From Flavobacteriaceae bacterium (GTDB taxonomy: Bacteria > Bacteroidota > Bacteroidia > Flavobacteriales > Flavobacteriaceae): a DNA stretch of 35,704 nucleotides. Location: NCBI GenBank assembly GCA_029942185.1, contig JAOZTK010000004.1, positions 1 to 35,704 of the forward strand, given 5' to 3'. Positions 15,758 to 32,330 of this stretch are shown here, in pieces. Position 1 is the first letter of the stretch. Each line of letters opens with the position of its first letter. Position numbers and translations under genes: made by a program. The notes under the pieces were generated by a model, which saw only the letters and a list, made by a program, of their open reading frames with translations, was not told the DNA's origin and made no database searches.

Positions 15758-15829
15758 TAGCCCGTAGGGGAATCGAACCCCTCTTACCAGGATGAAAACC
15801 TGGCGTCCTAGCCGATAGACGAACGGGCC
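15758..15829 (-). tRNA. tRNA-Glu (anticodon TTC)
   Basis: GGCCCGT...ACGGGCT acceptor stem, anticodon arm CCAGG-TTTTCAT-CCTGG, T-arm GGGG-TTCGATT-CCCC, discriminator A. Confidence 0.95.
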
Positions 15830-28729: not shown

Positions 28730-30958
28730 ATGATTCCAAAAGTTTTTAGAGAGGTCATTGACCTTGGAGATGGAAGAGAAATTTCCATCGAAACCGGAAA
28801 ATTAGCCAAACAGGCTCATGGTTCGGTAGTAGTACAAATGGGAAAAACCATGTTATTATGTACAGTTGTATCTAATTATAAAGCAAGTCCTGTAGACTTT
28901 TTACCTTTAACGGTAGATTATAGAGAAAAATTTGCAGCTGCAGGGCGTTATCCTGGAGGTTTCTTTAAAAGAGAAGCAAGACCAAGTGATGGTGAAGTAT
29001 TAACCATGCGTTTAGTAGATAGAGTGCTACGCCCTTTATTTCCTAAAGATTATCACAATGAAGTTCAAGTTATGATTCAGTTAATGTCTCATGATGAAGA
29101 TGTAATGCCAGATGCTCTAGCAGGTCTAGCAGCTTCTGCAGCAATTCAATTAAGTGATTTCCCTTTTGAAACTCCTATTTCTGAAGCACGTGTTGCCAGA
29201 GTAAATGGAGAATTCGTTATTAATCCTAGTAGAGCACAATTAGAAGAATCTGATATTGATATGATGATTGGTGCTTCTGCAGATTCAGTAATGATGGTTG
29301 AAGGTGAAATGCTGGAGTGTAGTGAGGAAGAAATGATAGAAGCAATTAAATTTGCACACGAATCTATCAAAGTTCAAATTGCAGCACAAGTTCGTTTAGC
29401 TGAAGCTGTTGGTAAAAAAGAAGTTCGTGAATACGAAACTGCTGAGGAAAACGAAGAATTAGGCAAAAAGATACACGACCTTTCTTATGACAAATGTTAT
29501 GCAATTGCAAAACAAGGCACATCTAAAGCAGAACGAAGTGATGCATTTGCTGCTGTAAAAGAAGAAGTAATTGCCTCATTTACCGAAGAAGAAATCGAAG
29601 AATTCGGTCACTTAGTTGGTGCTTATTACAATAAGTCTCAAAAAGAGGCGGTACGTGAATTGACATTAAGTGAAGGATCACGTTTAGATGGTCGTAAAAC
29701 TGACGAAATTAGACCTATTTGGTGTGAAGTTGATTATTTACCATCAACACATGGTTCTGCCATTTTCACAAGAGGTGAAACTCAAGCTTTAGCTACAGTA
29801 ACTCTAGGGACATCTAGAGAAGCAAATAAAATAGACATGCCATCTTACGAAGGTGAAGAAACATTCTATTTACATTACAACTTCCCTCCTTTTTGTACAG
29901 GTGAAGCACGTCCTTTAAGAGGAACGTCTCGTCGTGAAGTTGGTCATGGAAATTTAGCGCAACGTGCATTAAAAAACATGATACCTACAGATTGTCCTTA
30001 TACAGTACGAGTTGTTTCTGAAGTATTAGAATCTAATGGTTCTTCTTCAATGGCAACTGTTTGTTCTGGTACAATGGCATTAATGGATGCAGGTGTACAG
30101 CTTACAAAACCTGTTTCTGGTATTGCCATGGGATTAATTTCTGATGGAGATCGTTATGCAGTTTTATCTGATATTTTGGGAGATGAAGATCACTTAGGTG
30201 ATATGGATTTTAAAGTTACGGGTACTGCTGATGGGATAACAGCCTGTCAGATGGATATTAAAGTAAAGGGGCTTCCTTATGAGATTTTAATTAATGCATT
30301 GAATCAAGCTCGTGATGGTCGCTTACATATTTTAGAAAAATTAACAGATACGATAGCACAACCAAATGGAGATGTGAAATCACACGCTCCAAAAATGGTA
30401 ACAAGAACAATTCCTAACGAATTTATTGGTGCTTTAATTGGTCCTGGTGGAAAAGTTATTCAGGAAATGCAAAAAGAAACTGGTTGTACAATTGTTATTA
30501 ATGAAGATCCTGTCACTGAAGAAGGTATTGTTGAGATTTTAGGAACTGGTCAAGAAGGTATTGATGCTGTTTTAGCTAAAATTGATTCTATACTCTTTAA
30601 ACCTGTGAAAGGTGAAGTTTACGAAGTTAAAGTTATTAAAATGCTTGACTTTGGAGCAGTTGTAGAATATATGGATGCACCAGGTAACGAAGTATTACTG
30701 CACGTAAGTGAATTAGCTTGGGAACGTACTGAAAATGTTAGTGACGTAGTAAATATGGGAGATATTCTTAAAGTGAAGTATTTTGGTCAAGATCCAAGAA
30801 CTCGCAAAGAAAAAGTTTCTCGTAAAGCATTGCTAGAAAAGCCTGAAGGCTATGTAGCAAGACCGCCGAGAGATAATAACAGAGGTAGAAATAGCGGAAG
30901 AAGAGATAATCGCGGAAGAGATAATCATCGTGATGACAGAAAACCTAGAGATAATTAG
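28730..30958 (+). CDS. pnp: Polyribonucleotide nucleotidyltransferase
   Basis: 742 aa; two RNase PH domains, KH ([16 protein letters not shown]) and S1 domains, Arg/Asp/Asn-rich tail. Confidence 0.98.
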
Positions 30959-30983: not shown

Positions 30984-31018
30984 AAAAAAAGGCTTTCAAA
31001 ATTGAAAGCCTTTTTTTT
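30984..31018 (+). terminator. Rho-independent terminator of pnp
   Basis: AAAAAAGGCTTTCAAAATTGAAAGCCTTTTTTTT. Confidence 0.9.
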
Positions 31019-31027
31019 GTTTTAATC

Positions 31028-31122
31028 CCATAAGAAAAGCGCTCAACACAAAGTGGTGAGCGCCTTCTTATTTACCCCCTTAGGATAAGCTAAGAACTTA
31101 CCCTTTTTCATAGTCAATTAGG
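31028..31122 (-). ncRNA. Candidate small transcription unit (small RNA and/or 22-aa ORF) in the pnp-rpoD intergenic region
   Basis: Minus-strand TACATTTG (31134-31127) upstream; GC-elevated body; long terminator-like hairpin (31069-31032); no -33 TTG found at the expected distance. Confidence 0.4.
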
Positions 31123-31466
31123 GAAGCAAATGTACTAAAATTTTTAAGAGTAGCTTAAAAAGATCAATTTATGTTTAAAACTAGGTTTGAAAACTATAAA
31201 TACAACTTAAAATCTAAGTTCAATCTAAAAAGTTTTGCACTGTAGTCAAGCTGAACTCAGGTTACTACAACATTAAGTTGTAAAGTGCTAATTATAATGT
31301 TTTTAAAAAGTTGTCTAACATCTAAAATCTAGTAACGAAACGGCCTAATATTTTTTATCAGACAACAGTTATTTTTTTAAATACATTTTTTTTGTAACCT
31401 TTTTAAAAATTGTGCGTATATGTATATACAAGCTAGTATTTCATCTTTTAAAGCACACAATATTTA

Positions 31467-32330
31467 ATGAGACAATTAAAAATAACCAAGCAGGTTACTA
31501 ATAGAGAAACTGCTTCATTGGACAAGTATCTTCAGGAAATTGGAAAAGTAGACCTTATTACGGCTGATGAAGAGGTTGAATTGGCACAACGTATCAAAGC
31601 CGGTGATCAAATTGCACTTGAAAAATTGACAAAAGCAAATTTACGTTTTGTTGTATCTGTCGCCAAGCAATATCAAAATCAAGGATTAACACTTCCGGAT
31701 TTAATCAACGAAGGGAATTTAGGTTTGATCAAAGCGGCAAAACGTTTTGATGAAACACGTGGATTCAAATTTATTTCTTATGCCGTTTGGTGGATTCGAC
31801 AGTCCATTTTACAAGCTTTAGCAGAACAATCACGTATTGTACGTCTTCCTCTAAACAAAATCGGCTCCATTAATAAAATTAATAAAATGTACGCTTTCTT
31901 AGAACAAGAGAACGAACGTGAACCTTCTGCTGAGGAAATAGCAAAAAAACTCGATATGTCTATCAATGAGGTAAAAGAATCAATGAAAAACTCAGGAAGA
32001 CATGTATCCATGGATGCTCCTTTAATTGAGGGTGAAAATTCTAATCTGTACGATGTTCTACGATCCGGAGAATCTCCAAATCCGGATAGAAATTTAGTAC
32101 ATGAATCATTGCGCATTGAAATAGAACGTGCATTAGAAACGCTAACACCTCGAGAAGCAGATGTTGTTAAACTATATTTTGGTTTGGGCGAACATCAACC
32201 CATGACTTTAGAAGAAATTGGTGAAACTTTTGATTTAACGCGCGAACGTGTCCGACAAATTAAAGAAAAAGCCATCAGAAGACTCAAACATACTTCCAGA
32301 AGTAAAATCTTAATGACCTATTTAGGTTAG
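31467..32330 (+). CDS. rpoD: RNA polymerase primary sigma factor RpoD/SigA
   Basis: 287 aa; sigma70 regions 1.2-4.2 ([55 protein letters not shown]); short form usual in Bacteroidetes. Confidence 0.97.

Follow-up and report, generated by a model that had tools for sequence, protein, structure and literature searches.

The minus strand of our window, the whole 35,704-nucleotide stretch analysed (contig C4 of the 2.2-Mb genome G000), very probably carries at 31122-31028 one copy of a multicopy small RNA (sRNA) family of ~90 nt that pairs with the leader of a histidine-kinase mRNA. We consider it likely that this is a new family of trans-acting sibling base-pairing sRNAs that control the kinase mRNA, and the RNA-leader pairing is well supported by computation. 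The element and its neighbours comprise:

31127-31134, minus strand: predicted -7 promoter element TACATTTG, a perfect TAnnTTTG, with an equivalent box 5' of 18/19 homologous copies
31105-31112, minus strand: 5' single-stranded element UAUGAAAA, conserved in the alignment; its AUG is invariant (19/19) and opens no conserved ORF
31082-31104, minus strand: hairpin 1 (AGGGUAAGU...GCUUAUCCU), with a loop whose length varies among copies
31060-31081, minus strand: pairing region AAGGGGGUAAAUAAGAAGGCGC, made up of the seed AAGGGGG and a continuation into the terminator's 5' arm; nine genomes have a kinase leader complementary to it
31028-31069, minus strand: intrinsic terminator hairpin with a covarying stem and a U-rich tail
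31043-31111, minus strand: 22-codon ORF MKKGKFLAYPKGVNKKALTTLC, judged to be no gene (5-36 codons and differing C-termini in homologues)
28730-30958, plus strand: pnp, from the ORF list, convergent with the RNA and a conserved neighbour
31467-32330, plus strand: rpoD, from the ORF list, divergent from the RNA

The first-pass annotation had favoured a structured small RNA over a CDS, and the fold and its conservation bear this out. The minus-strand RNA folded at -32.0 kcal/mol vs -18.8 ± 3.2 for dinucleotide shuffles (z = -4.2), and 0/200 shuffles were as good. The alignment consensus of the copies reads UAUGAAAAAGG(g/a)UAAGU, a loop and ACUUAUCCUAAGGGGGUAAAUAAGAAGnCG, followed by the terminator, whose upper stem differs in sequence between copies with its pairing kept. 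Among 19 distinct copies, 96.7% of pair cells were standard and 11 pairs had changed on both sides. A covariation analysis gave stems that covary, with a score of 0.449 vs 0.192 in shuffles and at most 0.117 with the partners slid. The terminator stem supplied most of this covariation (both sides changed in 10/15 pairs; 95.4% of cells paired), and hairpin 1 was nearly invariant (98.8% of cells paired, one pair changed on both sides). The annotation had correctly placed the -7 box (31134-31127), the terminator hairpin and the ORF opened by the ATG at 31111-31109; its inner stem is also present but is longer than was written (AGGGUAAG..CUUAUCCU, 8-9 pairs).

A short coding gene, for a 22-codon peptide or a leader peptide, is favoured by the invariant AUG and by an A-rich start region. 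However, ORF lengths from that AUG in the 19 copies were 22, 10, 6, 5, 10, 34, 10, 12, 36, 12, 12, 12, 8 and six times 6, the C-terminus was not shared, the frame was broken by changes in loop length and lost in hairpin 1, and the RNA pairs covaried. No conserved reading frame was found across the 19 copies, and we give a coding gene almost no credence. By sequence comparison, we conclude that the element is an RNA gene and not a coding gene.

Both the promoter box and the terminator of the sRNA were conserved in sequence across copies. The earlier promoter call had been made from the -7 element by itself, and 18 of the 19 copies have a box of the form TAnnTT(T/C)(G/A) at positions -16 to -40 relative to the invariant AUG, in agreement with a promoter there; we infer that the RNA is transcribed. 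The pnp terminator (window 30984-31017) forms an almost perfect palindrome and has T runs on either strand; it may thus double as a back-up terminator for the sRNA.

The unit had been described as an orphan, which it is not: it has paralogues (1-3 sibling copies per genome), keeps to a fixed genomic neighbourhood with two conserved loci, and has a target mRNA that could be identified. A 301-base query against 40 relatives returned many further copies of query positions 80-170 within the genus, and a covariance model found 13 copies in 7/7 genomes of the genus (E 1e-13 to 1e-17), with one copy only found in the window genome. The genomes with homologues are named as flavobacterial metagenome assemblies, several labelled Lutibacter sp., and our literature search returned no paper joining Lutibacter with an sRNA. 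Scanning 84,980 species with a pattern extended the distribution by just two lineages, SJ88 with S06.Bin215 (tandem copies) and DOLZORAL124. Among 400 genomes sampled from the family, 2/237 genera had the RNA and 235/237 did not, and viral contigs gave no match to the element. Weak covariance-model matches beyond the three lineages (E 1e-4 to 1e-2) were rejected as terminator-driven after the best of them had been inspected. The first-pass annotation had also raised the prospect of a known Rfam RNA; none of 4227 models matched the RNA at the gathering cut-off, and searches at E up to 10 returned only AT-rich or terminator-like noise below cut-off. The sole Rfam match in the window was a tRNA gene at 15758-15829 on the minus strand.

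Most copies occupied two old loci, one between pnp and rpoD (locus A) and one between aspS and a small zinc-ribbon gene (locus B). Locus A adjoined pnp in six genomes of the genus, near rpoD, and in the SJ88 group an H+-pyrophosphatase gene stood in place of pnp. A few extra single copies lay outside the conserved loci (L057, L062, L075). We rejected a mobile repeat element, as most copies lie at two loci conserved across species and the ends of the element are a promoter box and a terminator. The zinc-ribbon gene is not favoured as a cis target of locus B: the RNA is reversed in the dolphin-mouth genome, and G005 has a YjbR gene at that place.

A BetR-type HTH gene was divergent from the RNA at locus A in G001, G003-G006 and SJ88. 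It was absent between the RNA and rpoD in the window genome and G002, with no homologue found elsewhere in either genome, and we regard it as lost from the window genome. The regulator was rejected as an obligate partner, as the RNA persists in its absence in the window genome and G002, and a protein gene replaces the RNA in other genera. In those genera a TTTTGTGATTWTCRCAAAA-like palindrome mostly separated the HTH homologue from the protein gene facing it. Where the HTH gene instead neighbours the sRNA, the two have a comparable element, TTTGTGATAAATACAAA, between them, so the BetR-type regulator may control the sRNA. Palindromes like TTTTGTGATTWTCRCAAAA occurred in several divergent promoter regions of BetR-type HTH genes (L087-L095) from Flavobacteriaceae and relatives, and are likely the operator of this uncharacterised regulator family.

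Targets were sought by a genome-wide pattern search. Outside the RNA genes, matches to CTTCTTATTTACCCCC with 0-1 mismatch fell only in the kinase leader, in three genomes; a 2-mismatch match lay in the kinase leader of a fourth, and the remaining seven two-mismatch matches were no more than in the reversed-pattern control. Three odd BLAST matches (G000 C44, G004 C5 and G002 C40) were complementary sites in the sense strand of this same leader. The operon consists of a NarL-type response regulator, a 211-aa lipoprotein, the leader and a TPR histidine kinase; in G000 a DUF4293 gene lies upstream. About 20 bases of the RNA, the conserved linker AAGGGGGUAAAUAAGAAG and the first bases of the terminator stem, had complementary sites in the leader, which is C-rich (22-32% C, against 6-12% G, in the genus). 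Such sites were present in 9/9 genomes holding the operon (the window genome and eight others), either after the lipoprotein stop codon or in the first kinase codons. In kinase homologues from five RNA-free genera (34-44% identical), C-rich leader sites were not found and the best duplex was -10 to -17. G062, the dolphin-mouth genome (1.5 Mb assembly), contained the RNA, and the kinase was not found there.

Duplexes of the locus A and B RNAs of the genus ranged from -27 to -40 kcal/mol (z -2.8 to -9.5 vs shuffled leaders). The RNA-leader duplex of the window genome reached -38.4 kcal/mol (z = -6.6), and the G002 site GCGCCTTCTTATTTACCCCC formed 20 bp with no mismatch (-39.9 kcal/mol, z = -8.2). 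G003 showed weak pairing (z -2.8) and G060/G061 modest pairing. Within one genome, copies A and B each paired with the kinase leader by prediction; copies C in G003 and G006 paired poorly with it and may have other targets. In G003, CTTCTTATTAACCCTC (L131:783-1508; G003:C66) immediately precedes the second ATG in a gene beside rplS for an outer-membrane-type protein, and its duplex with the locus A RNA (-29.4 kcal/mol) makes that gene a possible second target.

The variable bases of RNA and site matched species by species and partly copy by copy. Sites with CGACTTCTT were confined to G005 and G006, the two genomes with AAGAAGTCG in the locus B RNA, which reads AAGAAGUCGUC. In G004, one site has ACGCC (AAGTGCCTTCTT) and fits the locus A RNA AAGAAGGCACUU, and the other has GTGCC (AAACGCCTTCTT) and fits the locus B RNA AAGAAGGCGUUU. 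The SJ88 group has one copy with AAGAAGACG and sites reading CGTCTT(C/T)TT. Site-by-copy energies followed base matching in G001, G004 site 1, G005 and G006; at G004 site 2, both paralogues bound about equally. Own-species pairing beat reassigned leaders, with 92/5040 permutations as good, in a comparison with few independent events and no correction for phylogeny. The shared sequence could instead be a DNA site of one transcription factor, its complementarity incidental, and a TAnnTTTG box does follow the C-rich sites in the leader, which could then be operator DNA. Yet every site is in the complementary orientation on the sense strand, some sites are part of the kinase coding region, the sequence in the RNA genes falls within the transcript between two covarying hairpins, and copy-specific bases match, all of which makes a shared DNA site very improbable. 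In the leaders of G000-G006 (L136-L141), the box itself is conserved just 3' of the C-rich sites and ahead of the kinase start codon, and suggests an internal promoter; transcripts begun at this -7-like element would leave out the upstream sites, as may be true of some of the kinase mRNA.

Because its ~20 bases can pair with the start region of the kinase mRNA, the sRNA most likely tunes the amount of sensor kinase made. The seed AAGGGGGU would contact an ACCCCC stretch of the leader. The AAGGG of the RNA was 92-100% unpaired and the ACCCCC mostly unpaired in the predicted ensembles, making them a natural seed. Pairing in the cell would then lengthen to some 16-22 bp, with the lower terminator stem opened as it is on full pairing in the cofold (gain -17.5 kcal/mol), and would lower kinase translation or mRNA stability. 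The kinase would thereby be controlled separately from the two genes before it in the operon, those for the response regulator and the lipoprotein. As for sign, we lean slightly towards repression, because sites also cover early kinase codons. A variant of this reading, differing in sign, has the sRNA activating, with binding masking a Rho-loading site so that transcription reaches the kinase. Such a role would suit a C-rich, G-poor leader that separates lipoprotein and kinase genes in what looks like one operon, but complementarity to a G-rich RNA also explains the C-richness and the pairing sites run on into the coding region, and we consider activation unlikely. With several sites per leader, and a candidate site 5' of the outer-membrane-type protein gene in G003, the leader might instead be a sponge that titrates the sRNAs off other mRNAs, the kinase not being the main regulated gene. 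No other conserved target rose above the control pattern, and sites also occur in early kinase codons, which leaves a sponge rather improbable.

Within the kinase coding region there is a strong hairpin whose loop reads UCCCC (e.g. CCTACTGTTCCTGCTCCCCGGCAGGCAGTAGG in G000; L144 in G003, L145 in G005, L149 in G000, L150 in G004). Its stem appears changed on both sides between species (CTGC/GCAG, CTGT/ACAG), and G060/G061 have a different stem at the same place. The G-rich RNA might make an additional contact at this hairpin.

The LhrC1-5 RNAs of Listeria monocytogenes are likewise multicopy siblings with several equivalent C-rich/G-rich contacts, made in a loop, a single-stranded part and the terminator, and with a late operon gene as target (PMC4132741). 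There the sRNA is C-rich and the mRNA site G-rich, the reverse of the flavobacterial family, whose mRNA sites are repeated and partly matched to individual copies. We know of no sequence relation between the two. Rfp18 of Flavobacterium psychrophilum is another flavobacterial sRNA acting on an intergenic region of an operon, where it is predicted to pair and uncouple two genes (PMC9723704); its targets, compared by description, differ in being metalloproteases. In Bacteroides, which has no obvious Hfq or ProQ homologue, GibS (RF04182) is a trans-acting sRNA with an extended seed that also acts at translation starts (PMC7366714). The GibS seed differs in lying at the 5' end, and its model scored 23.6 in the window vs a cut-off of 115, in a weak match that covers the pnp end and terminator on the opposite strand.

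The promoters differ between copies from locus to locus, and one target could therefore receive several signals. We tentatively entertain, without favouring it, a kinase leader that is a multi-input RNA receiver for sibling sRNAs with different promoters, each with a dedicated site. To our knowledge, few flavobacterial trans-acting sRNAs have a known target. With its specific and testable target, its long complementarity and its natural compensatory variants, this family is a good case for sRNA pairing in the phylum and for how sRNA copies diverge together with their sites. If the leader does act as a multi-input receiver, each RNA copy and its site would co-evolve base by base, and the signals would be summed at one mRNA.
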